A DNA stretch of 64,000 nucleotides, from NCBI GenBank assembly GCA_025765615.1, contig JAIVFJ010000001.1, positions 62,001 through 126,000 on the forward strand. The letters are read 5' to 3'. Under the pieces are notes generated by a model. The model was not told the DNA's origin. It saw nothing but the letters and a program-made list of their open reading frames with translations, and searched no databases. A program made the position numbers and the translations under genes. The stretch's first letter is position 1, and the number at the start of each line of letters is the position of its first letter. The stretch comes from Zopfochytrium polystomum (taxonomy: Eukaryota > Chytridiomycota > Chytridiomycetes > Chytridiales > Chytridiaceae). Below are positions 1,930 through 64,000 of the stretch, one piece after another.

Positions 1930-2234
1930 TGCCAGGAACAGGGCAGGACAGGACAAGGCAGACAAGGAACTGAGAGGAGTGATGATTGTATTGGAAACAA
2001 TAATTCACTTGAGGGATGGGACAGGTCCCCCATCCCCCTTTTATACCTTTTGAGAGTCTTCCTTGTCAAGACTCAAAGAAAGTTCCAGAAAGAGCAATTA
2101 GTACTACAATAATACCAATGGTACCAATGACAACAAGACAAGTCAGGAAAGCAAAGAAGGTTCCAGAAGGTTCCACAAGGTTCCATGAAGGAATGTTCTA
2201 GAAGGTTCCAGAGGTTTCCAGAGGGTGATTCATA
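1930..2234 (-). repeat. 5' LTR of copy A, lacking terminal 3 bases
   Basis: It is homologous to the LTRs at 28-34 kb and 59 kb. It has a shorter heat-shock-element array (2155-2219, 13 five-bp units against 22-24 elsewhere). The TATA box and the self-primer sequence (2000-2010 on this strand) are conserved. The inner end reads TGCCAGG instead of TGTCAGG. Confidence 0.88.
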
Positions 2235-22022: not shown

Positions 22023-24839
22023 ATGGAGTCGTCGGTCGAAGCTGCCATTTCAACACACACCACCACCACCATTGGTCAGCGGAGGCCGACGACGACGTTT
22101 GAACTAGCCGGCGTCGAGGCCCAGCTCCACGCCATCCAGGTGTCCGCAAGGACGCTCGCTGCGGCAGTTTCAACTGCCGGAACCTCTTCCACATCGAACG
22201 AACCCGTCCGCGAGCACCTCAGCGCCCTCCGAGCTGCCGTCGCCGCAGTGACAACCCTTCTCACCGGCCTGGGGCTCCTGGATTCACCGCCCAATGCCAT
22301 GTGCGCCGTGGCAAACCCCGTTCCTGCCGCAGACCGCCCCGTGGCCGTTGCTCCGACAACCTCCTGCGTCCGCCGCAGCTTGTGGGACAAACTCTTACCC
22401 GAACTGAAGCACGCTATCCTCGCCCTCGCGGGCCCAGTAACCCAACACCTCTCCGGCGTCGCCATCCAACCGCTCCGCGCCCACTTCATAGGTGCTGATC
22501 GGGACCGAACCAGATCCGCGTTCCGCGACATCTTCGAACACGACCTCCACCACCTGCTCATCGATCCCCGCGAAGCACCCACCCCTGCCGCTGCCGCGGC
22601 AGCAACTGCCGCACACGCCGCGTTCAACTTTGCAGCGGTACTAAAGGACGGCATGTCGCTCAAATACCCCGACTACCTCCTCATCCGAAGCAGATTAATG
22701 TTCACCGCTGTCCAATCGACAATGGAGTACTGGTTCGAGCGCGAGCTTTTCCCTGTTGCCGTGGCCCGCGGCTGGCAGGACCTCCTTAGGCATGGGCCAT
22801 GCGGTGAGTGTCCTATCGAAGCGAGGGACGTTGCACTGTCCGGGCTGCCGCTGCACCGCGTCGCCGGACTCTTTGCCGCGCAGCCCAAGCTCGCATCGGC
22901 AACGGCTTTATCGATTCCGCGGCCCGCGTCGGCCGTGTCGACCTGCTGAGGTGGGCGGACGTGTTCAAGCCCTTTGAAACGCACGTTGGCACCCCCGCTC
23001 CAGGTCGCTGGCGAGGCAGCCGTGTGGGGCCACTTGCACGTGGTCGAATGGGCTTTGAACAGGTTCGGCATGGAGTGCGTGGCCGGGGCGTTGGACAGGG
23101 CTGCGGCGAGGGGACACCTTGCCCTTGTCGAGTTCCTGCACGACCGTGGAGCGGAGGCGACGGTCGCGGCGATGGACGGGGCGGCGGAGAATGGGCACAT
23201 TGACGTGGTGAAGTTCCTGCACGATCGTGGAGCGGAGGCGACGGTCGCGGCGATGGACCGCGCCGCGGAGAATGGGCACTTTGACGTGGTGAAGTTCCTG
23301 CACTCCCACCGCGCCGAGGGCTGCACGGAGGAAGCCCTCTATGGCGCACTGTATTCGGCGTCGACGGAGGATCGCGTGGATTTGAATAAAGAAGCGGAGC
23401 TGGTCAAGTTCCTGCTGGAACATCGCCCCGAGGTGGCAGACATTGCGGCCGACATCGTGTACATTCCGATCCTCCAGTGCTTGCATGTGCTGCCGCGAGC
23501 ATGCTTGGAGATCATCCAAGTCTTACATCGGCTGTCGTCAAAGGACTGGTCTGATCCGGCGGTGAAGATTGATCTGCCAATGGACTTGGCGGCGCGCGCG
23601 GGACTCTTGGATGTTCTAGAATTTTTGCACAGCAACCGTAACGAGGGCTGCACAGAAGCTGCTGTGAATACGGCAGCGGCAGGCGGCCACTTGGCGGTTG
23701 TAAAGTTCCTGAACGAGCATTTTGGAGAGGTCTTCACAGCGACTGCGATGGACGAGGCGGCAGCGGCGGGACACTTGGACATTGTCGAGTTCCTCCACGA
23801 GCAACGGACCGAAGGATGCAGCAAGGTGGCGATGGACGCGGCAGCCGGTAACGGCCATCTAGATGTTGTCCGATACCTGCACATGAACCGGAAGGAAGGG
23901 TGCAGCAAACAGGCCATGGACGTGGCTGCAGAGCGAGGGTATCTGGAAGTGGTCAAGTTCCTCCACGACAATCGATCCGAAGGCTGCAGTCATGACGCCG
24001 CGACGGGCGCCTTCCGAAAGGGGCACCTGGATGTGGTAGAGTTCCTCGGAGTCACTTACGGTCTGACCCCCGAGGGACTCGACGATACCAAATTTTGGAC
24101 CGACGTCATCGAGGAGCAGGTGCGTACCGGCGATCCCGGCGTTCATCTGCTGCCGCTGCAGCGCATGCCCGTGGCGAGCATGGCTGCAGCCGTCGTCGCC
24201 TGCACGGACGCAGCACAACGCGACCACCTGGCGTTCCGGTGCGTACAGCTCGAGCTTGCAAAGCACCTTGAAGCCGTGCTGGAGACCACCCCCGACGTAC
24301 TCGCCGCAGCGTCTCTCGAGGCTGTCGTTGGGAACGAGACACTCCAGCTCTGGGGCGCGCCTACAGTTGACGTGCCGGAGTACGACGTGTCGGAGTACCC
24401 GTCCAGAATCACAGCCGCCGCCCACCGCCGCCGCATCGAGGTCCTCAAGACCCTCCACACCCACCGCCCAGCACTCTTCTCCGCCTGCGGCGGAGTCACG
24501 GCTTTGATGGAGTCTTGCGTGCGCCACCTTTGCTTCAGCGAGCTGCTGTGGCTCTGGGAGAGTTTCCCGGAACCGGCTGCCGCGCACCCGATGTTTGCCC
24601 GGTTCTGCCCGGCGCTGGGCATGCTGGTGCGCGGTGGGGCGCAGAGCGCGGCGCAAGCGATGGACATTGCTGTGTCCAAGGGGTCGCTGGACACGGTGGT
24701 GTGGCTTAGGCACTGCTTTGGTGGGATGGATGGGGCGCTTGATCGCAGGGCGGCGGCTCTTGTCGAGCACGAGGCGTGGCGGCACATTTCGATGGGGAGC
24801 GAGTTGGAGGATGCCTCTTCAATGCGGGAAGACATCTGA
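22023..24839 (+). CDS. Ankyrin-repeat protein
   Basis: Exon 1 is 22023-22803 and exon 2 begins at 22884 after an 80-nt GT-AG intron. The reading frame then needs one base removed from the C run at 22992-22996 to enter the frame that continues to the stop at 24837-24839. With that correction the protein is about 911 residues. The first 250 residues are helical, with a segment (LWDKLLPELKHAILAL) faintly like an F-box. Then come at least 11 ankyrin units with the consensus A-x-NGHLDVVKFLHxxRxEGCS, and a diverged C-terminal part with two more weak units. Such proteins bind partners; no enzymatic domain is visible. Lineage-specific expansions of this ankyrin style occur in zoosporic and amoeboid eukaryotes. 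If the extra C is real, the product stops soon after residue 330. Confidence 0.8.
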
Positions 24840-26914: not shown

Positions 26915-27526
26915 AATTCCCAATTCAATAACGCCAGCAAAAAAGTTCAGGCTCTTTAGCGACACTTCACTGCATCTCACAGTACTTGCATCGTGCATTC
27001 CAGTACAGGCTGGACCGAATGGGCACGCGTCCACACAGAGCGCTCTACCAACCGGTCAGCAAGGAGTGGACGGGTGGCAGGTAACCATAAATACAGCGGT
27101 TTGGGATAGGATTGCATTTTGAACAGAAAATCTGTCAGCGTTTCGGAGGTGTGGGACTACACTGATGTCTCAGTGATAAAGTCAAGGGATTCTATTTGCA
27201 AAAACTAGCATACCTGTCATAAAACTGCAAGGATTGGAACCCCTATTCTTCTTCCTGGTTCTTTAGTTTCCAAGACACTATCAAAGTGTATTTGCCGTCT
27301 TTATTATTGGGACTGCTTTTACTACTTTTGTCTTACAGTTTCTGTTGCACCAGGGTTTTCCCAACATATTTTCTTTTTGGTGACTAACAGAACTGCATAG
27401 GGATGGGGTGCCTGGTAAGCTGTTCCCCACACATGTCTATTTATTGTTTGTTTTCTGCACTCGTACATACACACTTGGGTTAGCGGACTTTGAGCATTAA
27501 TACCCCGCACAATCAGAACAACAGGA
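26915..27526. other. Intergenic, no supported gene
   Basis: No coding region, RNA gene or repeat recognised. Confidence 0.35.
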
Positions 27527-27770
27527 AAGAAGTTGCTCAGGGCCTCCGCAGGAAATTGTTGAATGTGATTCCACTGGGCAATTGCGATTGGAACTTGAGT
27601 GGAAAGACGATGAGGAATTGTCAGAAAGCAAACCTCTCCTATATTATCTGCTTGAGCAGAGAAGGAGGAAAACTGTTGACACCGGGTTTCTGTTCCACTT
27701 AATACTCAGAGTATTTGTCATCAGCGCAAGCCAGCGCCCAGGTCTGCATTGGCGGTGGCTCGCTCTCCCA
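27527..27770 (+). pseudogene. Duplicated scrap of BTB-like pseudogene
   Basis: The 27527-27760 sequence is nearly identical to the reverse complement of about 56565-56805, inside the broken BTB-like copy at 56.3-57.6 kb. Both read LELEWKDDEELSESKPLLYYLLEQRRRKTV in one frame. It is an isolated fragment without start, BTB region or second exon. Confidence 0.75.
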
Positions 27771-28155: not shown

Positions 28156-28508
28156 TGTCAGGAACAGGGCAGGACAGGGCAAGGCAGACAAGGAACTGAG
28201 AGGAGTGATGATTGTATTGGAAACAATAATTCACTTGAGGGATGGGACAGGTCCCCCATCCCCCTTTTATACCTTTTGAGAGTCTTCCTTGTCAAGACTC
28301 AAAGAAAGTTCCAGAAAGAGCAATTAGTAATACAATGATACCAATGATACCAATGACAACAAGACAAGTCAGGAAAGCAAAGAAGGTTCCAGAAGGTTCC
28401 ACAAGGTTCCATGAAGGAATGTTCTAGAAGGTTCCAGAAGGTTCCAGAAGGTTCCATGAAGGAATGTTCTAGAAGGTTCCAGAGGTTTCCAGAGGGTGAT
28501 TCATAACA
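28156..28508 (-). repeat. 3' LTR of outer element (353 bp)
   Basis: Ends TG...CA on the coding strand, with a 110-bp heat-shock-element array at 28381-28490. It is followed on its inner side by the purine-rich tract and chromodomain end of the element. Confidence 0.95.
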
Positions 28509-29109
28509 TCATCTCCCCCTTTTAGGCCTCTTCTGCAACTTGGTGGGGTACCTGGTCTTGAACTTGAGCAGAAGGTCTTGGCAGTGAGTGAGGTTTGACT
28601 CAGGTTCCCAGGTGTTGTCAGCATCTGAGTAACCTTTCCACTTAACAAGGAACTTGAGTGTCCTTCCAAACCACTTGGCATCCAAGATTTGTTCAACCTC
28701 AAATTCCTCTTCACCTTCTACCTCAACTGGAGGAGGAGGAGGAAAAACTCTGCCTGGAATGGAATTGGCCACAAACTTCTCCAAAAGGCTGACATGGAAA
28801 ACTGGGTGGATCTTCATGGATGCAGGGAGATCCAGCTTGAAGGTGACTGGATTGATTTGCTCCAAGATCTTGAAAGGTCTCAACTTGAGGTTGTCTAGCT
28901 TGGGACTTGGTCTTTTGGACTGCAAGTTCTTCCTCATGCCTGGCCAGTAAAAGTCTCTGGAAGCAAGCTCATATGTCTTGTGCTCTCCTTGGTGTCCAGC
29001 TGTTGCTGCAACATGCCTTGTCTTGAGTATCTCAAGTTTTTTCCTCTTCTTGGCTGATTTGAATCTTGTGAGGCTTGGGGTCCTTGGAAATAGCATGGGC
29101 CCACACACT
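28509..29109 (-). pseudogene. Outer element 3' frame: zinc-finger remnant plus chromodomain
   Basis: Minus strand. It begins with the integrase zinc region (TAGHQGEHKTY, then FYWPGMRK), jumps over the missing integrase core to KRPSPKLDNLK, and ends with a chromodomain (EVEQILDAKWFG, FLVKWKGYSDADNTWEPESNL). Chromodomains steer integration of chromoviruses to marked chromatin. It is separated from its upstream half (33243-32303) by the inner element and shifted by an extra A near 29036, so it cannot be expressed as the intact fusion seen in the inner copy. Confidence 0.9.
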
Positions 29110-29132
29110 GTCAGTGTTATGAATCACCCTCT

Positions 29133-29242
29133 GGAAACCTCTGGAACCTTCTAGAACATTCCTTCATGGAACCTTCTGGAACCTTCTGGAACCTTCTAGA
29201 ACATTCCTTCATGGAACCTTGTGGAACCTTCTGGAACCTTCT
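29133..29242 (+). promoter_or_regulatory. Array of 22 five-bp heat-shock-factor units
   Basis: Read in exact 5-bp steps, 18 of 22 units fit nGAAn or nTTCn, mostly alternating: for example GGAAC-CTTCT-AGAAC-ATTCC and GGAAC-CTTCT-GGAAC-CTTCT. The misfits are CCTCT, TTCAT twice and CTTGT. Perfect heat-shock elements need three such alternating units; this array has several, about 110 bp upstream of the TATA box. A further GGAAC-TTTCT pair lies near 29310. Binding by HSF is inferred from the known consensus. Confidence 0.85.
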
Positions 29243-29352
29243 TTGCTTTCCTGACTTGTCTTGTTGTCATTGGTATCATTGGTATCATTGTATTACTAAT
29301 TGCTCTTTCTGGAACTTTCTTGGAGTCTTGACAAGGAACACTCTCAAAAAGG

Positions 29353-29398
29353 TATAAAAGGGGGATGGGGGACCTGTCCCATCCCTCAAGTGAATTAT
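29353..29398 (+). promoter_or_regulatory. LTR TATA box and predicted transcript start with 11-nt self-primer
   Basis: TATAAAAG at 29353-29360. AAGTGAATTAT at 29388-29398, 35 bp after the TATA box, is the exact reverse complement of the primer-binding site at 29471-29481, so it is probably the 5' end of the mRNA. The same spacing is found in the LTR at 59.3 kb (TATA at 59524, primer sequence 59559-59569). Confidence 0.8.
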
Positions 29399-29470
29399 TG
29401 TTTCCAATACAATCATCACTCCTCTCAGTTCCTTGTCTGCCTTGTCCTGTCCTGCCCTGTTCCTGACATC

Positions 29471-29481
29471 ATAATTCACTT
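29471..29481 (+). other. Self-priming primer-binding site (Tf1 type)
   Basis: ATAATTCACTT starts 2 nt after the 5' LTR and pairs over exactly 11 nt with the predicted 5' end of the same transcript. Tf1 of fission yeast and its relatives prime reverse transcription with the first 11 nt of their mRNA rather than a tRNA. I see no obvious tRNA 3' end match at this position. Confidence 0.8.
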
Positions 29482-29508
29482 CACCCTCTCCCACTACTCT
29501 CTGCCATC

Positions 29509-30432
29509 ATGTCTGACCCAAACAACACCTTCCCTGATGCAACTGCCTTCCAAGCCTTGATGGACCAATTACAAGCCCTTTCAAGACAGACACACCAACT
29601 TCAAGAACAAGTCCTTCACCAGCAGCACCAGCTTCAACAACAACTTCACCAACAAGAACATCAAGCTCTTCCCCTGCCTCAAGCCAACCAAGCAAGAGAG
29701 CCCAAGGTTCCCAGCCCTGACAAGTTCACTGGGCTGGCCAAAGACCTTAGGAACTTCATGGCCACTGTGGAGAATGTCATCCTTCTCCAACCTTCAAGAT
29801 TTCCCAGTGAGCAAGTCAAGGTTCTTTTCACAAGCACCCTCCTGTCTGGTCAAGCTCAATCATGGTACAGATCTCTCCCAAGCACACCCACCACCCTGCA
29901 AGAGCTCTGGGAGGGGCTGGAGGCTACCTTTGGTGACCCCTACGCATCTTGGACAGCAAGATCCAAGCTCAAGCATATCAAGCAAGGAAAGCAATCTTGT
30001 GTGGCCTACACCAACCAATTCAAGCAACTAGCCAGAGACTCTGGATACAATGATGCAGCTCTGATGGAGCTGTACCATGATGGTCTCCATGAGTCTATCC
30101 AAGACATGCTCTCCCAGTCTCTGCACATCCCTGAGACCTTGGAAGAGTACATTCTCCTTGCCATCAAGATTGACAACAGACTCTACTCCAAGAGGCTGAA
30201 GCAAAGACAAGTAGGAACTACATCAAGACCTACCCCAGTTCCTCAAGCTCTTACAGTTCCTGAACCCATGCAAGTGGATGCAGTTGAGACACTTCCTAAG
30301 GGTCCTCTGAGCCAAGAGGAGAAAACAAGGAGGGCCCAGCAGGGACTGTGTTTTTACTGTGGCTCCAAGGAGCATGCTGTCAAGGACTGCCCAAGGAAGA
30401 AGCACCCAAACTCCCAGGTCCAGGCTCACTGA
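29509..30432 (+). CDS. gag: Gag polyprotein of inner chromovirus
   Basis: 307 residues from ATG at 29509. An N-terminal Gln-rich coiled segment (about 15-60), then a Ty3-type capsid domain (about 75-215; QAQSWYRSL, LWEGLEATFGDP, YTNQFKQLARDSGYND) and one CCHC zinc knuckle near the C-terminus (CFYCGSKEHAVKDC). It forms the particle and binds RNA. The copies at 33209-34132 and 59680-60603 differ by only a few residues. The end overlaps the protease frame, reached by a -1 shift at 30405-30411. Confidence 0.93.
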   Translation: MSDPNNTFPDATAFQALMDQLQALSRQTHQLQEQVLHQQHQLQQQLHQQEHQALPLPQANQAREPKVPSPDKFTGLAKDLRNFMATVENVILLQPSRFPSEQVKVLFTSTLLSGQAQSWYRSLPSTPTTLQELWEGLEATFGDPYASWTARSKLKHIKQGKQSCVAYTNQFKQLARDSGYNDAALMELYHDGLHESIQDMLSQSLHIPETLEEYILLAIKIDNRLYSKRLKQRQVGTTSRPTPVPQALTVPEPMQVDAVETLPKGPLSQEEKTRRAQQGLCFYCGSKEHAVKDCPRKKHPNSQVQAH

Positions 30433-30450
30433 GGGGCAATTCCCTGGACC
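30405..30450 (+). promoter_or_regulatory. Predicted -1 ribosomal frameshift site between gag and pol
   Basis: C CCA AAC at 30405-30411 sits in the gag frame exactly as X XXY YYZ requires. After a 5-nt spacer, GGTCCAGG (30417-30424) can pair perfectly with CCTGGACC 18 nt later, and the gag stop codon lies in the loop. A -1 shift enters the protease frame directly. The site is conserved at 60576-60582, 33230-33236 (minus) and 988-994 (minus). Confidence 0.75.
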
Positions 30451-31943
30451 CTCCTCCAAGCTGCCCCTGTTTCATCACCACCACCAGCACCACAAACACC
30501 TCAGATTCCAAGCCCCACCAACTCACCATGGATGTCAAGATTCAACTCTCACCCAAGTCAACCATCACAACCAAGGCCCTTATCGACTCTGGATCATCCT
30601 GCAACATCATTGATGCCACCCTTGCCAAGTCTTGTGCCATTCCCACCATCAAGAAATCCACACCCCTCAAGGTCCACTTTGCCAATCATGCTCTGTTCAA
30701 GGAAATCAGCCATGAAACCAAGCTAAACCTCCACATCCAAGACTTTCCACCATCCATGGTCAACCTGGAAGTATTGGATCTTGGCTCACCCACATTCTCT
30801 GTCATCCTGGGATTACCATGGCTGCAAGCCCAGAACCCTGCCATTGATTGGGTCACTGGTCAAGTCCAACCTCCACCAATTGGAACAGTCACCCAAAACT
30901 CAAGTGAAGCCTCCAAGTCTCATTCTCTCAAGTCCCTGATTCAAGGTTCTCAGCCTAGTATCCAAGGTCAAAGACAAATGACAGCTCCAGTATCAGCCTA
31001 CAGCTCACAGATCCCAGCCAAGATTCAAGTTTCACAGTTCACAGTTCATAGTCAAGATTCCAGGACAGCTCATAGAGCTCACAGTCATGGCCAAGTCTGT
31101 AGTTCACAGAACCCACAGTCAAAGATTCAAGTACCACAGTTCACAGTCCAAATTCAAGATTCAAGCTCCACAGCTCACAGTCTTTGCCAAGAACAGAACC
31201 CTCAGTCAAAGATTCAAGAATCACAGTTCCCAGTCAACAATTCAAGCCCCACTGCTGATGAGCACAGAAGGACAGACCTTGCACCTGAAGGGGGAGATGG
31301 TTTCACCCCACCATCCAAGACACACCTTTCACTGCTTCCTGAGAGTGTGTGGGCCTATGCTATTTCCAAGGACCCCAAGCCTCACAAGATTCAAATCAGC
31401 CAAGAAGAGGAAAAACTTGAGATACTCAAGACAAGGCATGATGCAGCAACAGCTGGACACCCAGGAGAGCACAAGACATATAAGCTTGTTTCCAGGGACT
31501 TTTACTGGCGAGGCATGAGGAAGAACTTGCAGACCAAAAGACCAAGTCCCAAGCTGGACAACCTCAAGTTGGGACCTTTCAAGATCTTGGAGCAAATCAA
31601 TCCAGTCACCTTCAAGCTGGATCTCCCTGCATCCATGAAGATCCACCCAGTTTTCCATGTCAGCCTTTTAGAGAAGTTTGTGGCCAATTCCATTCCAGGC
31701 AGAGTTGTTCCTCCTCCTCCTCCAGTTGAGGTAGAAGGTGAAGAGGAATTTGAGGTTGAACAAATCTTGGATGCCAAGTGGTTTGGAAGAACACTCAAGT
31801 TCCTTGTTAAGTGGAAAGGTTACTCAGATGCTGACAACACCTGGGAGCCTGAGTCAAACCTCACTCACTGCCAAGACCTTCTGCTCGAGTTCAAGACCAG
31901 GTACCCCACCAAGTTGCAGAAGAGGCCTGAAAGGGGGAGATGA
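30411..31943 (+). CDS. Protease-chromodomain fusion frame of inner element
   Basis: The frame entered by the -1 shift runs open to a TGA directly before the 3' LTR (about 510 codons). It holds a retroviral-type aspartic protease (ALIDSGSS, catalytic DSG at 30585-30593; later FSVILGLPWL), a Ser/Gln-rich repetitive linker (about 30890-31260), then the deletion junction where RT and RNase H should be, the integrase zinc region (TAGHPGEHKTY), a second junction lacking the integrase core, and a C-terminal chromodomain (VEQILDAKWFG, LVKWKGYSDADNTWEPESNL). Both deletions keep the frame, so the product would be a Gag-protease-chromodomain protein. An internal ATG at 30530 could allow a separate start. 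Confidence 0.85.
   Translation, partial: LPGPGSLRGNSLDPPPSCPCFITTTSTTNTSDSKPHQLTMDVKIQLSPKSTITTKALIDSGSSCNIIDATLAKSCAIPTIKKSTPLKVHFANHALFKEISHETKLNLHIQDFPPSMVNLEVLDLGSPTFSVILGLPWLQAQNPAIDWVTGQVQPPPIGTVTQNSSEASKSHSLKSLIQGSQPSIQGQRQMTAPVSAYSSQIPAKIQVSQFTVHSQDSRTAHRAHSHGQVCSSQNPQSKIQVPQFTVQIQDSSSTAHSLCQEQNPQSKIQESQFPVNNSSPTADEHRRTDLAPEGGDGFTPPSKTHLSLLPESVWAYAISKDPKPHKIQISQEEEKLEILKTRHDAATAGHPGEHKTYKLVSRDFYWRGMRKNLQTKRPSPKLDNLKLGPFKILEQINPVTFKLDLPASMKIHPVFHVSLLEKFVANSIPGRVVPPPPPVEVEGEEEFEVEQILDAKWFGRTLKFLVKWKGYSDADNTWEPESNLTHCQDLLLEFKTRYPTKLQKRPERGR
31928..31943 (+). other. Polypurine tract and stop codon abutting the 3' LTR
   Basis: GAAAGGGGGAGATGA precedes the 3' LTR at 31944 directly, the usual place for plus-strand DNA priming. 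The chromodomain stop codon TGA (31941-31943) is its last triplet. Confidence 0.8.
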
Positions 31944-32297
31944 TGTTATGAATCACCCTCTGGAAACCTCTGGAACCTTCTAGAACATTCCTTCATGGAA
32001 CCTTCTGGAACCTTCTGGAACCTTCTAGAACATTCCTTCATGGAACCTTGTGGAACCTTCTGGAACCTTCTTTGCTTTCCTGACTTGTCTTGTTGTCATT
32101 GGTATCATTGGTATCATTGTATTACTAATTGCTCTTTCTGGAACTTTCTTGGAGTCTTGACAAGGAACACTCTCAAAAAGGTATAAAAGGGGGATGGGGG
32201 ACCTGTCCCATCCCTCAAGTGAATTATTGTTTCCAATACAATCATCACTCCTCTCAGTTCCTTGTCTGCCTTGTCCTGTCCTGCCCTGTTCCTGACA
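31944..32297 (+). repeat. 3' LTR of inner element (354 bp)
   Basis: It appears identical to the 5' LTR at 29115-29468, heat-shock array at 31962-32071 included. Confidence 0.97.
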
Positions 32298-32302
32298 GTC
32301 AG

Positions 32303-33243
32303 GAAGCAGTGAAAGGTGTGTCTTGGATGGTGGGGTGAAACCATCTCCCCCTTCAGGTGCAAGGTCTGTCCTTCTGTGCTCATCAGCAGTGGGGCTTGAA
32401 TTGTTGACTGGGAACTGTGATTCTTGAATCTTTGACTGAGGGTTCTGTTCTTGGCAAAGACTGTGAGCTGTGGAGCTTGAATCTTGAATTTGGACTGTGA
32501 ACTGTGGTACTTGAATCTTTGACTGTGGGTTCTGTGAACTACAGACTTGGCCATGACTGTGAGCTCTATGAGCTGTGCTGGAATCTTGACTATGAACTGT
32601 GAACTGTGAAACTTGAATCTTGGCTGGGATCTGTGAGCTGCAGGCTGATACTGGAGCTGTCATTTGTGGTTGACCTTGGATACTAGGCTGAGAGCCTTGA
32701 ATCAGGGACTTGAGAGCATGAGACTTGGAGGCTTGACTTGAGTTTTGGGTGACTGTTCCAATTGGTGGAGGTTGGACTTGACCAGTGACCCAATCAATGG
32801 CAGGGTTCTGGGCTTGCAGCCATGGTAATCCCAGGATGACAGAGAATGTGGGTGAGCCAAGATCCAATACTTCCAGATTGACCATGGATGGTGGAAAGTC
32901 TTGGATGTGGAGGTTTAGCTTGGTTTCATGGCTGATTTCCTTGAACAGAGCATGATTGGCAAAGTGAACCTTGAGGGGTGTGGATTTCTTGATGGTGGGA
33001 ATGGCACAAGACTTGGCAAGGGTGGCATCAATGATGTTGCAGGATGATCCAGAGTCTATAAGGGCCTTGGTTGTGATGGTTGACTTGGGTGAGAGTTGAA
33101 TCTTGACATCCATGGTGAGTTGGTGGGGCTTGGAATCTGAGGTGTTTGTGGTGCTGGTGGTGGTGATGAAACAGGGGCAGCTTGGAGGAGGGTCCAGGGA
33201 ATTGCCCCTCAGTGAGCCTGGACCTGGGAGTTTGGGTGCTTCT
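32303..33243 (-). pseudogene. Outer element protease frame, split by the inner element
   Basis: The same protease (DSG) and Ser/Gln-rich linker as in the inner copy, with the same RT/RNase H deletion junction near 32360-32372. It is broken at the insertion site. As sequenced, the frame runs on into the inner element's LTR and stops there. Confidence 0.9.
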
Positions 33244-34132
33244 TCCTTGGGCAGTCCTTGACAGCATGCTCCTTGGAGCCACAGTAGAAACACAGTCCCT
33301 GCTGGGCCCTCCTTGTTTTCTCCTCTTGGCTCAGAGGACCCTTAGGAAGTGTCTCAACTGCATCCACTTGCATGGGTTCAGGAACTGTAAGAGCTTGAGG
33401 GACTGGGGTAGGTCTTGATGTAGTTCCTACTTGTCTTTGCTTCAGCCTCTTGGAGTAGAGTCTGTTGTCAATCTTGATGGCAAGGAGAATGTACTCTTCC
33501 AAGGTCTCAGGGATGTCCAGAGACTGGGAGAGCATGTCTTGGATAGACTCATGGAGACCATCATGGTACAGCTCCATCAGAGCTGCATCATTGTATCCAG
33601 AGTCTCTGGCTAGTTGCTTGAATTGGTTGGTGTAGGCCACACAAGATTGCTTTCCTTGCTTGATATGCTTGAGCTTGGATCTTGCTGTCCAAGATGCGTA
33701 GGGGTCACCAAAGGTAGCTTCCAGCCCCTCCCAGAGCTCTTGCAGGGTGTTGGGTGTGCTTGGGAGAGATCTGTACCATGATTGAGCTTGACCAGACAGG
33801 AGGGTGCTTGTGAAAAGAACCTTGACTTGCTCACTTGGAAATCTTGAAGGTTGGAGAAGGATGACATTCTCCACAGTGGCCATGAAGTTCCTAAGGTCTT
33901 TGGCCAGCCCAGTGAACTTGTCAGGGCTGGGAACCTTGGGCTCTCTTGCTTGGTTGGCTTGGGGCAGGGGAAGAGCTTGATGTTCTTGTTGGTGAAGTTG
34001 TTGTTGAAGCTGGTGCTGCTGGTGAAGGACTTGTTCTTGAAGTTGGTGTGTCTGTCTTGAAAGGGCTTGTAATTGGTCCATCAAGGCTTGGAAGGCAGTT
34101 GCATCAGGGAAGGTGTTGTTTGGGTCAGACAT
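33209..34132 (-). CDS. gag: Gag polyprotein of outer chromovirus
   Basis: An intact 307-residue copy of the Gag described at 29509-30432, with a few substitutions (for example a Thr to Asn in STPNTLQEL). The zinc knuckle and the frameshift site (33230-33236) are preserved. It starts 41 bp inside the 5' LTR. Confidence 0.92.
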   Translation of the reverse strand: MSDPNNTFPDATAFQALMDQLQALSRQTHQLQEQVLHQQHQLQQQLHQQEHQALPLPQANQAREPKVPSPDKFTGLAKDLRNFMATVENVILLQPSRFPSEQVKVLFTSTLLSGQAQSWYRSLPSTPNTLQELWEGLEATFGDPYASWTARSKLKHIKQGKQSCVAYTNQFKQLARDSGYNDAALMELYHDGLHESIQDMLSQSLDIPETLEEYILLAIKIDNRLYSKRLKQRQVGTTSRPTPVPQALTVPEPMQVDAVETLPKGPLSQEEKTRRAQQGLCFYCGSKEHAVKDCPRKKHPNSQVQAH

Positions 34133-34172
34133 GATGGCAGAGAGTAGTGGGAGAGGGTGAAGTGAATTATGA

Positions 34173-34525
34173 TGTCAGGAACAGGGCAGGACAGGGCAAG
34201 GCAGACAAGGAACTGAGAGGAGTGATGATTGTATTGGAAACAATAATTCACTTGAGGGATGGGACAGGTCCCCCATCCCCCTTTTATACCTTTTGAGAGT
34301 CTTCCTTGTCAAGACTCAAAGAAAGTTCCAGAAAGAGCAATTAGTAATACAATGATACCAATGATACCAATGACAACAAGACAAGTCAGGAAAGCAAAGA
34401 AGGTTCCAGAAGGTTCCACAAGGTTCCATGAAGGAATGTTCTAGAAGGTTCCAGAAGGTTCCAGAAGGTTCCATGAAGGAATGTTCTAGAAGGTTCCAGA
34501 GGTTTCCAGAGGGTGATTCATAACA
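34173..34525 (-). repeat. 5' LTR of outer element (353 bp)
   Basis: Appears identical to 28156-28508. Heat-shock array at 34398-34507; primer-binding site at 34160-34170 on its inner side. Confidence 0.96.
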
Positions 34526-56295: not shown

Positions 56296-57600
56296 AACCA
56301 GAGCTCCCAAACAACTAACCCATAAACGGGTGGACAACAACGCAAATTGTAGATGCAAACTTTTGGGAATCGGAGCAGTAGTAGTTGTCTTCGTAGCACA
56401 CACACTCTTTCGAAATGGCCAATGAATAGACGGAAACAACCTCTCCTGGTGCTTTGCCAACTTTACGCTAAACTCAAAATTAAAGACTCGCGGTGGGACT
56501 TGCTGAGGAGCAGTAGGGTTGTTAGGCAGAACTGACTGGTTAGCAGCAAGAGGCACAAGACGGACCTGAACCTAGCCAATGCAGACCTGGGCGCTGGCTT
56601 GTGCTGTTGACAAATACTCTGAGTATTAAGTGTAATAGAAACCTGGTGTTAACAGTTTTCCTCCTTCTCTGCTCAAGCAGATAATATAGGAGAGGTTTGC
56701 TTTCTGACAATTCCTCATCGTCTTTCCACTCAAGTTCCAATCGCAATTGCCCAGTGGAATCACATTCAACAATTTCCTGCGGAGGCTCTGAGCAACTTCT
56801 TTCCTGTTGTTCCGATAGCGCGGGGTATTCCCTTTCCCCCTTTTGGTCCTGAGGATCCAAGTGATCTTGTTTTGCGCTTTGCATCATCTTCGAATCGTTG
56901 AAAGAATCAGCCTTTTCGACGGTAACCAGCTGCAGCCATATCTCGTTGAACTCCTTGATCATCGACATCCAGCTCTCTGTCGACTCCGCGGCCTCCTTCT
57001 GTGCATGCTCGATCTGCTCCAGCACCGGCGCTCTTTCGTTCGCAGTCCAGGCAACAAAGAAAACGACCAACGTGGGTCAAACAGCGATGGGATGCCAAGA
57101 AACTGCAAGTTATGATTGATGCCAGCCGGCGAAAGTTCGCCGGCCTCTTCGAAGTCATCTTCACCGTCTTCATTGCTGCTCGACTCGCCGGCGTCCACGG
57201 CCTTGACGAGCCTGCCCAAGAAAGTATTGGCAGAAAGGAGAACGTTCTTGGGGAATCCGAGGTGAACTGGAACGAGCCATTTGCGCTCAGCTGTGTCGTA
57301 GAAGGGCAGGACGACGCGGCGGAAGACGACTGGGGAGCAGTCGGGAAGGCGGATCAAGTGAGGATCGCGGAACTGCAGGATGCGGTGTGTCCGGTCGTGA
57401 AGAAGCGTGTCCTAGAAGGCGGCAAAAGTGGACGCCGGCACCTGGAAAACGGTTTCCCCGACGCCGCCGCCGTCTGCGTCACCGTGGCCGCCGATGATCG
57501 TGAACATGGGGTCGACTGGTCTGTTGGAACCGGCGGCCTGCACGATGGTTGTCTGTGTGCGCGTGTCGTTGAAAGATGAAGGATCGGGGTTTGTCAGAAA
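56296..57600 (-). pseudogene. Third BTB-like paralogue, inactivated
   Basis: Minus-strand homology covers the whole gene: upstream element near 57595, FTIIGGHGDADGGG (no start codon), a stop replacing proline in the FPDTLL motif, then LPDCSPVVFRRVVLPFYDTAERKW, HNLQFLGIPSLFDPRW, a frameshift near 57065, the helical EQIEHAQKEAAESTESW segment, the acidic linker, and exon-2 homology (FNFEFSVKLAKHQ) at about 56500-56400. The region between linker and exon 2 is replaced by unrelated sequence that is also found at 27.5-27.8 kb. Confidence 0.85.
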
Positions 57601-59276: not shown

Positions 59277-59639
59277 TGTTATGAATCACCCTCTGGAAAC
59301 CTCTGGAACCTTCTAGAACATTCCTTCATGGAACCTTGTGGAACCTTCTGGAACCTTCTGGAACCTTCTAGAACATTCCTTCATGGAACCTTGTGGAACC
59401 TTCTGGAACCTTCTTTGCTTTCCTGACTTGTCTTGTTGTCATTGGTATCATTGGTATCATTGTATTACTAATTGCTCTTTCTGGAACTTTCTTTGAGTCT
59501 TGACAAGGAAGACTCTCAAAGGGTATAAAAGGGGGATGGGGGACCTGTCCCATCCCTCAAGTGAATTATTGTTTCCAATACAATCATCACTCCTCTCAGT
59601 TCCTTGTCTGCCTTGTCCTGTCCTGCCCTGTTCCTGACA
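59277..59639 (+). repeat. 5' LTR of copy D (363 bp)
   Basis: The same family LTR with the longest heat-shock array seen here (59295-59414, 24 five-bp units). TATA at 59524, self-primer 59559-59569. Confidence 0.95.
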
Positions 59640-59679
59640 TCATAATTCACTTCACCCTCTCCCACTACTCTCTGCCATC

Positions 59680-60603
59680 ATGTCTGACCCAAACAACACC
59701 TTCCCTGATGCAACTGCCTTCCAAGCCTTGATGGACCAATTACAAGCCCTTTCAAGACAGACACACCAACTTCAAGAACAAGTCCTTCACCAGCAGCACC
59801 AGCTTCAACAACAACTTCACCAACAAGAACATCAAGCTCTTCCCCTGCCTCAAGCCAACCAAGCAAGAGAGCCCAAGGTTCCCAGCCCTGACAAGTTCAC
59901 TGGGCTGGCCAAAGACCTTAGGAACTTCATGGCCACTGTGGAGAATGTCATCCTTCTCCAACCTTCAAGATTTCCCAGTGAGCAAGTCAAGGTTCTTTTC
60001 ACAAGCACCCTCCTGTCTGGTCAAGCTCAATCATGGTACAGATCTCTCCCAAGCACACCCACCACCCTGCAAGAGCTCTGGGAGGGGCTGGAGGCTACCT
60101 TTGGTGACCCCTACGCATCTTGGACAGCAAGATCCAAGCTCAAGCATATCAAGCAAGGAAAGCAATCTTGTGTGGCCTACACCAACCAATTCAAGCAACT
60201 AGCCAGAGACTCTGGATACAATGATGCAGCTCTGATGGAGCTGTACCATGATGGTCTCCATGAGTCTATCCAAGACATGCTCTCCCAGTCTCTGCACATC
60301 CCTGAGACCTTGGAAGAGTACATTCTCCTTGCCATCAAGATTGACAACAGACTCTACTCCAAGAGGCTGAAGCAAAGACAAGTAGGAACTACATCAAGAC
60401 CTACCCCAGTTCCTCAAGCTCTTACAGTTCCTGAACCCATGCAAGTGGATGCAGTTGAGACACTTCCTAAGGGTCCTCTGAGCCAAGAGGAGAAAACAAG
60501 GAGGGCCCAGCAGGGACTGTGTTTTTACTGTGGCTCCAAGGAGCATGCTGTCAAGGACTGCCCAAGGAAGAAGCACCCAAACTCCCAGGTCCAGGCTCAC
60601 TGA
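59680..60603 (+). CDS. gag: Gag polyprotein of copy D
   Basis: 307 residues, essentially identical to the Gag at 29509-30432, zinc knuckle included. The frameshift site is at 60576-60582. Confidence 0.93.
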   Translation: MSDPNNTFPDATAFQALMDQLQALSRQTHQLQEQVLHQQHQLQQQLHQQEHQALPLPQANQAREPKVPSPDKFTGLAKDLRNFMATVENVILLQPSRFPSEQVKVLFTSTLLSGQAQSWYRSLPSTPTTLQELWEGLEATFGDPYASWTARSKLKHIKQGKQSCVAYTNQFKQLARDSGYNDAALMELYHDGLHESIQDMLSQSLHIPETLEEYILLAIKIDNRLYSKRLKQRQVGTTSRPTPVPQALTVPEPMQVDAVETLPKGPLSQEEKTRRAQQGLCFYCGSKEHAVKDCPRKKHPNSQVQAH

Positions 60604-61178
60604 GGGGCAATTCCCTGGACCCTCCTCCAAGCTGCCCCTGTTTCATCACCACCACCAGCACCACAAACACCTCAGATTCCAAGCCCCACCAACTCACCAT
60701 GGATGTCAAGATTCAACTCTCACCCAAGTCAACCTTCACAACCAAGGCCCTTATAGACTCTGGATCATCCTGCAACATCATTGATGCCACCCTTGCCAAG
60801 TCTTGTGCCATTCCCACCATCAAGAAATCCACACCCCTCAAGGTCCATTTTGCCAATCATGCTCTGTTCAAGGAAATCAGCCATGAAACCAAGCTAAACC
60901 TCCACATCCAAGACTTTCCACCATCCATGGTCAACCTGGAAGTATTGGATCTTGGCTCACCCACATTCTCTGTCATCCTGGGATTACCATGGCTGCAAGC
61001 CCAGAACCCTGCCATTGATTGGGTCACTGGTCAAGTCCAACCTCCACGAATCGGAACAGTCCACCCAAAACTCAAGGTCAAGCACCCAAGTCTCATGCTC
61101 CCCAAGTCCTTGATTCAAGGTTCACAGCCAGCCAAGACTCAAATGCCACAGTTCACAGTTCACAGTCAAGTATCATAG
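60582..61178 (+). pseudogene. Protease frame of copy D, truncated
   Basis: It contains the DSG protease (ALIDSGSSCNIID) and FSVILGLPWL, then stops at 61176-61178 in the linker, before RT. RT follows in another frame after the rearranged segment, so a Gag-Pol polyprotein cannot be made from the sequence as given. Confidence 0.8.
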
Positions 61179-61432
61179 AGCTCACAGAGCTGACTCATTG
61201 TATAGCTAAACCACATCAAGGATTCATGGCCAATACTCGTTCACAGTTCTTCAAGTCAATACCCCACAGTCTTGATTCAAGTCACAGTCACAGTCCCACA
61301 TCAAGATTCAAGTCCCACTCAGCCACATCTTGCCAAGAACAGCTGCTGCATCCAAGACTCAAGAGAAATCTCCCTTACATGTTTTCCCAGCAAGGCAGAT
61401 TCACCAGCCCAAGCCTATTCGGCTGAGGACGA

Positions 61433-61645
61433 CAGGCAGACACTGAAGATATATTTATTGGAACATAATCATTGAGGATCAGTCCCCATCCCCTTTATAC
61501 TTTTGAATGTCTCTTGCAAGCTCCAAAAGTTCCAGAAAAGCAATTATGCAAGATCCAATGATACATGCAGTCAGAAAGCAAGAAGGTTTCCAAGCACAAG
61601 GCAGAGAATGTTCTGAAAGTCCGAGTTTCAGGGTGATCAAACCCT
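61433..61645 (-). repeat. Diverged related LTR inside copy D
   Basis: The minus strand resembles the family LTR at reduced identity: the run CCCCATCCCCTTTATACTTTT aligns with the TATA region, CAAAAGTTCCAGAAAAGCAATTA with the U3 middle, and AGAATGTTCTGAAAG with decayed heat-shock units. Ends are approximate, and no target duplication was found. Confidence 0.65.
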
Positions 61646-64000
61646 TATAACTGTGAAATCCCACTCAAGGATGAAACTTGCAGCCCACCTTTCAAGCCAC
61701 TGTACCACCTCTCTCCACCAGAAGCCAAGGCCCTCCAAGAATACATTGAAGAAATGCTGAACAAGGGATTCATCCAACCTTCCAAGTCACCAGCTGGAGC
61801 TCCCATCTTTTTTGTCAAGAAGAAGGATGGGGGACTGAGACCCTGTGTGGACTACAGAGATCTCAATGAGATGACAGTCAAGAACCGCTATCCACTGCCT
61901 CTCATCTCTGAATTACTGGACAAACTGAGCCATGCAAGGATATTTTCCAAGATTGACCTCAGAGGTGCCTACAATTTGGTCAGAATTAAGCCCCAGGATC
62001 AATGGAAGACTGCCTTCAGATGCAAATACGGTCACTTTGAGTACTTGGTTATGCCCTTTGGACTTACCAATGCTCCAGCTATTTTCCAAGGCATGATGAA
62101 TGACATCTTCAGGGATATTCTGGACCTTTTTGTCATTGTCTACCTGGATGATATCCTGGTATTTTCATCTGACACTGCAAGCCATATGGGACATGTCAAG
62201 ACTGTCTTGGAGAGACTCAGACAGCATCACCTCTATGCAAAGCTGGAGAAGTGTGAATTCCACAAGACCTCCATTGAGTTTTTGGGGTTCATTGTGTCTG
62301 ACAAAGGGATCTCCATGGCACCAGACAAGATCCAAACTATTCTTGAATGGAAGGCTCCAAATTCCATCAAGGATGTTCAAAGCTTCCTTGGATTTTGCAA
62401 CTTCTACAGAACCTTCATTGCCAACTATTCTGCCATAGCCAAGCCTCTCACTGATCTCACCAAGAAGACCACCAAGTTTGAATGGACCCCAGCAGCAGAG
62501 CAAGCCTGGCTAGCTCTTAAGACAGCAACCACAAGTGCACCACTCCTTAAGCATGTGGATCCCTTGCTTCCCTTCACCTTGGAAACTGATGCCTCAGACT
62601 ATGCCCTTGGCGCTGTTCTGTCCCAGCCAAGCTCTCAGGACCCCTCTGCTCCTCTGCATCCAGTGGCATATTACTCCAGGAAGCTGAACAGTGCTGAGTG
62701 TAACTACACAGTCCATGACAAGGAGTTGCTTGCAATTGTGGAAGCATTCAAATTCTGGAGACACTACTTGGCTGGTTCTAAAGGCATCTCTGTCTATTCT
62801 GATCACAAGAACCTCACCTTCTTCAGGGCAAGGAGGTTGCTCAAGCAGAGGCATGCCAGGTGGGCTGAACTGCTCTCTGAGTATGACTTTAAGCTGTGCT
62901 ATTCTCCTGGCCACCTTAACACTGTGGCTGATGCCCTGTCAAGAAGAACAGACCTTGCACCTGAAGGGGGAGATGGTTTCACCCCACCATCCAAGACACA
63001 CCTTTCATTGCTTCCTGACAGTGTGTGGGCCTATGCTATTTCCAAGGACCCCAAGCCTCACAAGATTCAAATCAGCCAAGAAGAGGAAAAACTTGAGATA
63101 CTCAAGACAAGGCATGATGCAGCAACAGCTGGACACCCAGGAGAGCACAAGACATATGAGCTTGTTTCCAGAGACTTCTACTGGCCAGGCATGAGGAAGT
63201 ACATCAAGAACTATGTCAGCAGCTGTGAAACCTGTCAAAGAAACAAATCCAGCAGACACAAGCCCTATGGACTTCTGGAGCCCCTCCCAATTGCCATCAG
63301 CCCTTGGTCATCAATATCCATGGACTTCATTGTGAAACTGCCCCCATCCCATGGATTTGACTCTATCCTTGTTGTCATCTGCAGAAGGACAAAGTTGGCC
63401 CATTTCATCCCCTGCACTGAGAATATAGATGCACAAGGAACAGCAGACCTGTTTTTGCAGCACATATTCAGGCTCCATGGGCTGCCTCAGTCAATCGTCA
63501 GTGACAGAGGACCACAGTTCAGATCTCAATTTTGGAAAGCACTCACAGCAGCCCTTGGAATCAAGTCTCAACTGTCAACTGCTTATCACCCTCAGACTGA
63601 TGGACAAACAGAAAGAACAAACCAGACTCTGGAGCAGTATTTGAGGTGCTATGTCAGCTATCAACAGGATGATTGGCCCACCCTCCTTCCACTGGCAGAA
63701 TTTGCTCTCAACAATTCTCTCCACTCAAGCACCCAGCTATCTCCTTTCTTTGCAACCTATGGCTTCAATCCAAGAGGAGATCTTCTGGGACAAGAGACCC
63801 TATCCAATGTCCAAGCTCCTGCTGCGGCTTCACACTTACATAAGCTCAAGATCATCAACTCCTTCCTGGACTCCACCCTGAAGCAAGCCCAAGAAGATGC
63901 CTCAAGATTTGCCAACACTCACAGAATGGACCATGACTTTGCTGTGGGTCAGCAAGTTTGGCTTCTGAGGAAGAACTTGCAGACCAAAAGACCAAGTCCC
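61637..64000 (+). CDS. pol: Reverse transcriptase, RNase H and integrase of copy D (open at edge)
   Basis: At least 788 codons without a stop. RT: FFVKKKDGGLRPCVDYR, KNRYPLPLISELLD, FSKIDLRGAYN, FGLTNAPAIFQ and the catalytic VYLDDILVF (Asp-Asp near 62150). RNase H: LETDASDYALGAVL, YSRKLNSAE, VYSDHKNL, GHLNTVADALSR. Integrase: zinc region GHPGEH with CETC, then the DDE triad in SMDFIVKL, VSDRGPQF and GQTERTNQ. The order RT-RNase H-integrase is Ty3/gypsy. All catalytic residues visible are intact. The upstream connection to protease is broken. Confidence 0.93.

Follow-up and report, generated by a model that had tools for sequence, protein, structure and literature searches.

A phased array of heat shock element units in the U3 region of a chromodomain Ty3-type LTR retrotransposon family of Zopfochytrium polystomum

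In the 64,000-nucleotide stretch of Zopfochytrium polystomum DNA analyzed here (the window), the U3 region of a fungal chromodomain LTR retrotransposon carries a dense array of 5-bp units in the canonical grammar of heat shock elements (HSEs), as had been predicted, and this grammar is retained across the sampled family. The array is probably the HSF-dependent upstream activating region of the LTR promoter of a young and abundant Ty3-type element, the activity of which would be raised by heat. The case for HSF derives from the combination of the promoter position of the array, a separate HSE located outside it, and the occurrence of this grammar in the regions upstream of certain hsp genes of the host.

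In the register that spans positions 29133-29242, GAA or TTC occupies positions 2-4 in 18 of the 22 five-mers, the non-matching ones being CCTCT, CTTGT and two occurrences of TTCAT. At each TTCAT the polarity of the units flips and the 5-bp phase is kept. The original prediction described this array as unbroken; that description is too strong, as strict GAA/TTC alternation yields perfect runs of 4, 8 and 4 units (Table 1). Each of these runs contains at least the three alternating nGAAn/nTTCn units with 5-bp spacing that define an HSE. Likewise, the 24 units proposed for copy D and the 13 proposed for copy A correspond to the units spanned by the best stretches, 19 and 10 of which, respectively, are matched. 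With at most 2 mismatches allowed, TTCNNGAANNTTCNNGAA is matched 57 times in the window; 100 shuffles gave 3.45 matches on average and always fewer than 57. In first-order Markov re-samplings of the sampled LTR arrays, runs of at least 4 units appeared in 1 of 9400. No perfect run of 3 units was found in the two element bodies examined or in the non-LTR rest of the window.

Table 1. Features of the retrotransposon family in the window (positions are those of the window)
Feature	Position	Strand	Details
5′ LTR of the inner element, 354 bp, TGTTA...TGACA	29115..29468	+	100% identical to 31944-32297; 5-bp target duplication GTCAG on both sides
HSE array in U3	29126..29242	+	perfect runs 29144-29161, 29169-29206, 29224-29241
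Separate 3-unit perfect HSE, outside the tandem array	29307..29319	+	-81 to -69 of the predicted start
TATAAAA box	29353..29359	+	-35 of the predicted start
AAGTGAATTAT, putative self-primer at the predicted start of R (5′ end of the transcript)	29388..29398	+	11-nt perfect complement of post-LTR sequence
Putative primer-binding site ATAATTCACTT	29471..29481	+	exact complement of the self-primer AAGTGAATTAT
gag ORF, 321 aa stop to stop	29467..30432	+	PF03732 1.5e-12
ORF with aspartic protease, integrase zinc finger, SH3_Tf2-1 and chromodomain	30300..31943	+	domain-family matches
3′ LTR of the inner element, same array	31944..32297	+	100% identity with the 5′ LTR
Outer element of the same family, into which the inner one is inserted	28156..34525	-	LTRs 34173-34525 and 28156-28508 100% identical; target duplication CACCC
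LTR of copy A as aligned, short-array type	1930..2226	-	10/13 units match
5′ LTR of copy D, longer array	59277..59639	+	19/24 units match
pol of copy D (reverse transcriptase, RNase H, integrase), extending beyond the window	61637..63997	+	PF00078 6.7e-40, PF17917, PF17921, PF00665

The inner and outer elements form a nested pair, in which a copy on the + strand is inserted in a copy of the same family on the - strand. The LTR pairs are identical within both elements; thus, both insertions look very recent, and recent activity of the family is indicated. The ORF that follows gag in the inner element matched no reverse transcriptase family, so that this copy is internally deleted. The Ty3 gene order (gag, protease, reverse transcriptase, RNase H and integrase) was pooled from two copies and not read from one, with gag and protease coming from the inner copy and reverse transcriptase, RNase H and integrase from copy D. 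At the end of the inner-element ORF, PF24626 is followed by PF00385, which places the chromodomain C-terminal to the integrase SH3-like domain.

In the self-priming retrotransposons of the Tf1/Tj1 type, the primer-binding site is complementary to the 5′ end of the mRNA, according to the cited passage of PMC4600332. Applied to the complementarity between ATAATTCACTT and AAGTGAATTAT, this rule predicts a transcript start at 29388. The 11-nt complement is placed 35 bp after the TATA box, and the element may be self-priming in the manner of the Tf1/sushi group, with the mRNA end itself being a prediction. Relative to this predicted start, the array extends from -262 to -146 and the TATA box is located at -35, consistent with the proposed location of the array upstream of a TATA box (TATAAAA at 29353). 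Since the self-primer match defines the predicted start, the array is assigned to a promoter position by a criterion independent of the array itself.

The family was searched for in the whole genome (80.16 Mb in 761 contigs). A 23-base pattern of the TATA region, allowing up to 3 mismatches, gave 1038 forward and 1053 reverse matches (2091), compared with 1 forward and 0 reverse matches of the same pattern written backwards. Perfect 6-unit HSEs occupy 2188 places, as opposed to 0 for the control; this pattern is its own reverse complement, and the counts of both strands correspond to the same places. Perfect 4-unit HSEs occur 7339 times, as opposed to 10 for the control, with the first of these places listed individually and the LTR share of the sites being an estimate. 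Four-unit HSEs with linkers foreign to the LTR family were located at 3 places in the genome (0 for the control); given that this pattern covers part of the possible linkers (about a third if bases are equal), the number of 4-unit sites outside the family may be about ten, as expected by chance. A genome search with the array itself, using a program that skips simple repeats, returned nothing.

We counted the perfect runs in 47 distinct copies, whose loci were picked by means of the TATA pattern and not the array, and found at least 3 units in 46 of them, at least 4 in 45, at least 6 in 18 and at least 8 in 16. Thus, the 5-bp phasing that was to be checked throughout the family holds in 45 of the 47 copies, a sample in which the listed TATA places had zero mismatches and those sampled came from contigs C1-C5, leaving decayed copies under-represented. 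Left out of this count were matches of fewer than 150 bases, matches whose start lay past base 10 of the non-array query, duplicate rows and L079-L082, four loci selected by array variants, the last of which also holds a TATA place. A wider set, which takes in loci chosen by the array and best-match loci, comprises 82 distinct copies, 78 of them with an intact 5′ end. In these 78 copies, the array part measures 128 bp in 38, 83 bp in 30 and 173 bp in 3, with seven single other lengths; that is, copies differ in array length by whole 45-bp modules. The short-array copies examined keep two 4-unit runs. The mean pairwise difference of the non-array LTR is 1.2% among long-array copies (n=14) and 1.7% among short-array copies (n=21); hence, long-array copies look slightly younger, a difference too weak for a claim of selective expansion.

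Among the RNase H matches in the genome, of which 150 out of 483 candidates were scored, many are located in open frames about 1255 codons long, some of which fall between LTR sites carrying the TATA pattern; consequently, intact copies appear to be present. Two TATA-to-TATA spacings, about 2.8 and about 3.5 kb, recur beside one of about 4.9 kb and, considering also the inner copy with no matched reverse transcriptase, internally deleted forms appear to have been amplified. A search with the Gag protein identified two proteins, a JGI protein (68%) and a Penicillium chermesinum protein (31%).

The genome holds 14 HSF-domain matches, some of which are exons of one gene. The two HSF genes that were checked match PF00447 at 7.9e-31 and 1.6e-33. 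One host HSF aligns to the solved DNA-binding domains of HSF2 and HSF4 (best E 2.2e-26), is also listed against HSF1 chains, and has as its nearest named relative a protein of the chytrid fungus Zopfochytrium polystomum (85% identity over 60% of the query). Three HSF-domain matches (C7:485101, C459:28671 and C655:3016) have near-equal scores and one internal TAG each, and are possibly a dispersed pseudogene family.

As a test set for the host grammar, we used the stretches upstream of 14 HSP70 match places (of 58 matches) and 7 small-HSP places (of 33), here L099-L119. A 4-unit HSE with up to 1 mismatch is present in 9 of these 21 regions and absent from all 99 background tiles of 600 bp. The positives comprise four of the 14 HSP70 regions (L104, L105, L108 and L112) and five of the 7 small-HSP regions (L114 and L116-L119). 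Grouping of the 21 regions by sequence similarity gave 9 clusters, of which 4 are positive and one comprises all seven small-HSP regions; Fisher p values against the tiles are 2.8e-8 for regions and 2.4e-5 for clusters. The remaining 12 of the 21 regions hold no 4-unit site at this threshold. These include L099-L103, the first HSP70 regions fetched as candidate positives, which have no HSE and were recognized only afterwards, from their translated N-termini, as mitochondrial-type (L099-L102) and ER-type (L103); both types are counted in the 21. The sequences of L106 and L107 are similar to that of the ER-type region, and the two HSP70 stretches of contig C74 may miss the promoter, as their matches begin inside the family profile. 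The four closely similar mitochondrial-type HSP70 genes, on contigs C171, C285, C191 and C66, have upstream stretches that are 86-93% identical and are perhaps haplotypes or recent duplications.

A perfect 3-unit run was found in none of the 21 hsp upstream regions. The 14 HSF-domain loci, partly overlapping stretches of about 3 kb, contain no 4-unit site with up to 1 mismatch. LTR modules also contain TCTGGAACATTCT, the site present at L108. For an 8-unit site, the LTR has 0 mismatches, compared with at least 5 in the 16 hsp regions compared. Judging from these sequences, the host appears to use the HSE grammar at some hsp genes, and the LTR appears to carry a stronger version of it.

The pattern of the array is not due to chance, and part of its length can be traced to the tandem duplication of a single 10-bp motif. 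Periods of 10, 35 and 45 bp are detected by TRF; these, together with the whole-module differences among copies (128, 83 and 173 bp), would also be expected of a neutral promoter minisatellite, in which a 10-bp motif reading GAAnnTTCnn was duplicated by slippage or recombination in replication with no HSF function. Under a stricter null model, random 10-mers taken from the non-LTR window and repeated in tandem produced at least 6 perfect units in 579 of 200000 cases (0.3%), so that the array alone could be a lucky minisatellite; random 45-mers in tandem did so in 0 of 100000. Such a minisatellite is nevertheless improbable when the second HSE outside the array, the occurrence of its grammar at some of the host hsp genes, the location of the array in U3 upstream of the TATA box and the predicted start, and the two 4-unit runs retained by short-array copies are considered. 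The conservation of the 5-bp phase is no proof of selection, since length changes by whole modules keep the phase mechanically, and agreement among copies is weak evidence of constraint because the copies are young. The unit variants common to several of these young copies include core-breaking changes (CTTGT and CCTCT) and linker changes. Under the HSF explanation, the array would be under selection.

The array might instead be a strong activator that is mainly constitutive, either because another factor binds it or because HSF does so at normal temperature, and not specifically heat-inducible. In yeast, perfect contiguous HSEs are expected to bind HSF without stress. The perfect contiguous HSEs of the LTR, unlike the imperfect sites of the host hsp genes, and the several HSF-domain genes in the genome are in line with this possibility, which we regard as unlikely; the grammar is exactly that of HSF, in a comparison made with HSF sites only. 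A role at the RNA level, in which the U3 of the 3′ LTR is transcribed and its palindromic units form hairpins for RNA stability or packaging, seems very remote. The array does fold better than its shuffles (z -4.1, with none of 200 shuffles equalling it), but hairpin potential follows automatically from GAA/TTC alternation, and the length of the array is highly variable.

The explanation that we favor for the array, an HSF-dependent and heat-raised LTR promoter, would operate as follows. HSF trimers would bind cooperatively along the 5-bp-phased GAA/TTC units, from about -262 to -146, with further binding at the 3-unit site at about -75, and the bound HSF would activate transcription from the TATA box at -35, the transcript presumably beginning at the self-primer. 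Heat or proteotoxic stress would then increase the amount of genomic RNA and, with it, the number of new copies. The array may have grown by tandem duplication of 10-bp and 45-bp modules, and the promoter, being almost free of CpG, would escape silencing by CpG methylation.

The depletion of CpG is pronounced in these young copies. The inner LTR has 0 CpG compared with 16.3 expected, and the element bodies have 4 of 144 expected (inner element), 12 of 244 (copy D) and 6 of 110 (copy A). In the family stretches of the window (29115-32297, 59277-64000 and 1-2226), the observed/expected ratio is 0.00-0.05, as opposed to 1.04 in the window DNA outside these elements, and TpG and CpA are raised (about 1.4-1.5 compared with about 1.07). 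Among 41 distinct non-array LTR sequences, there are 2 CpG in 9220 bases. The depletion extends to the coding frames: CGN codons encode 0 of 14 Arg residues in gag and 1 of 37 in the copy D pol; the two frames contain no TCG, CCG or ACG codon and a single GCG; and C|G across codon boundaries occurs once in gag and 3 times in the copy D pol, compared with 24 and 63 expected. The raised TpG and CpA suggest a history of methylation and deamination in the lineage.

CpG depletion is not wholly special to the LTR family. Two of seven other repeat stretches of the window have observed/expected ratios of 0.50 and 0.53, with the other five at 1.0 or above, and many 400-bp genome tiles around LTRs, which include element bodies, are CpG-poor. 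An inverted repeat pair at 27499-27753 and 56575-56829 is 96% complementary and has about half of the expected CpG. The genome has 19 matches to cytosine-methylase domains, some on small contigs that may be bacterial. Such domains are clustered on contigs C421 and C638, possibly through bacterial contamination. The main text of a survey of RIP (PMC12543289) contains no occurrence of 'CpG'. Outside the repeats, the window includes a long ankyrin-repeat ORF (22950-24836) with many relatives in oomycetes, slime moulds and chytrids.

If HSF drives the LTR, a single environmental cue would switch on about 2000 dispersed promoters in an early-diverging fungus. Ready-made heat-inducible enhancers would have been seeded near genes, and the genome would be loaded with HSF sites stronger than those at the hsp genes examined. 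Together with the CpG loss, two tricks of the plant element ONSEN, a heat-response site and a CG-free promoter, would have been repeated in another kingdom and in another retrotransposon superfamily. A more far-reaching possibility, which we consider doubtful, is that the family has captured the host HSF genome-wide: its approximately 2000 LTRs, holding an estimated >99% of the perfect four-unit HSEs, would be the main high-affinity target on heat shock, undergo a CpG-free, methylation-proof burst of retrotransposition, compete with the hsp genes and set the strength of the heat-shock response. Were this so, the fungal family would have converged on both ONSEN and human satellite III. The titration of HSF by transposon-borne sites becomes testable in a natural genome.

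Heat-responsive transposons with HSEs are already known, as the cited passages on ONSEN, the Cryptococcus elements TCN3 and TCN12, and the Caenorhabditis Helitrons report. TCN3 (Ty3/gypsy) and TCN12 are mobilized at 37 C and have two and one putative LTR HSEs, respectively (PMC12810828, cited passages). The original prediction held that no fungal chromovirus with such an array was known: none is described in the literature passages retrieved (mostly the beginnings of abstracts, with most subscription papers outside the search), where no fungal element with a comparable array appears, whereas heat-responsive fungal LTR elements that bear HSEs, TCN3 and TCN12, have been published. In the passages cited, these elements have one or two putative sites and their mobilization was measured; the family described here has up to 8 contiguous perfect units plus flanking runs and is known from sequence alone. 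MAGGY of Magnaporthe is a chromovirus. Its promoter is activated by stress, as cited by PMC3978060, whose main text contains neither 'heat shock element' nor 'HSE'; as a fungal LTR element, it is likened to the present family by that description and not by LTR sequence.

In Caenorhabditis, Helitrons hold the high-density HSE clusters of the genome, with tandem overlapping HSEs and measured HSF-1 binding (PMC6927752, cited passage). These are likewise transposon-borne HSE clusters, but they belong to a DNA transposon of an animal host. Human satellite III, which has putative HSEs, is activated by HSF1 on heat shock, and transcription-factor titration is among the roles listed for it in the cited part of PMC9032817; it is a pericentric satellite, whereas the array described here lies in a dispersed LTR promoter. 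The likeness to Tf1/Tj1, as far as the cited passage describes them, would lie in a primer-binding site that pairs with the 5′ end of the mRNA of the element itself, represented here by the sequence match.

A close parallel in promoter anatomy is ONSEN (ATCOPIA78) of Arabidopsis, whose LTR promoter has the HSE nTTCnnGAAn and, in the cited passage of PMC3907296, neither CG nor CHG sites. An HSE in the LTR promoter and a promoter without CG are found in both. ONSEN is a copia-type element of a plant and the present family a Ty3/chromodomain element of a fungus; the ONSEN promoter, as described there, lacks CHG, whereas the inner LTR has 14 CHG sites; and in the present family the array spans more than 20 units, and the near-complete lack of CpG extends to the element bodies examined. 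By its anatomy, the LTR would thus be an ONSEN-type promoter, for which heat induction is predicted.
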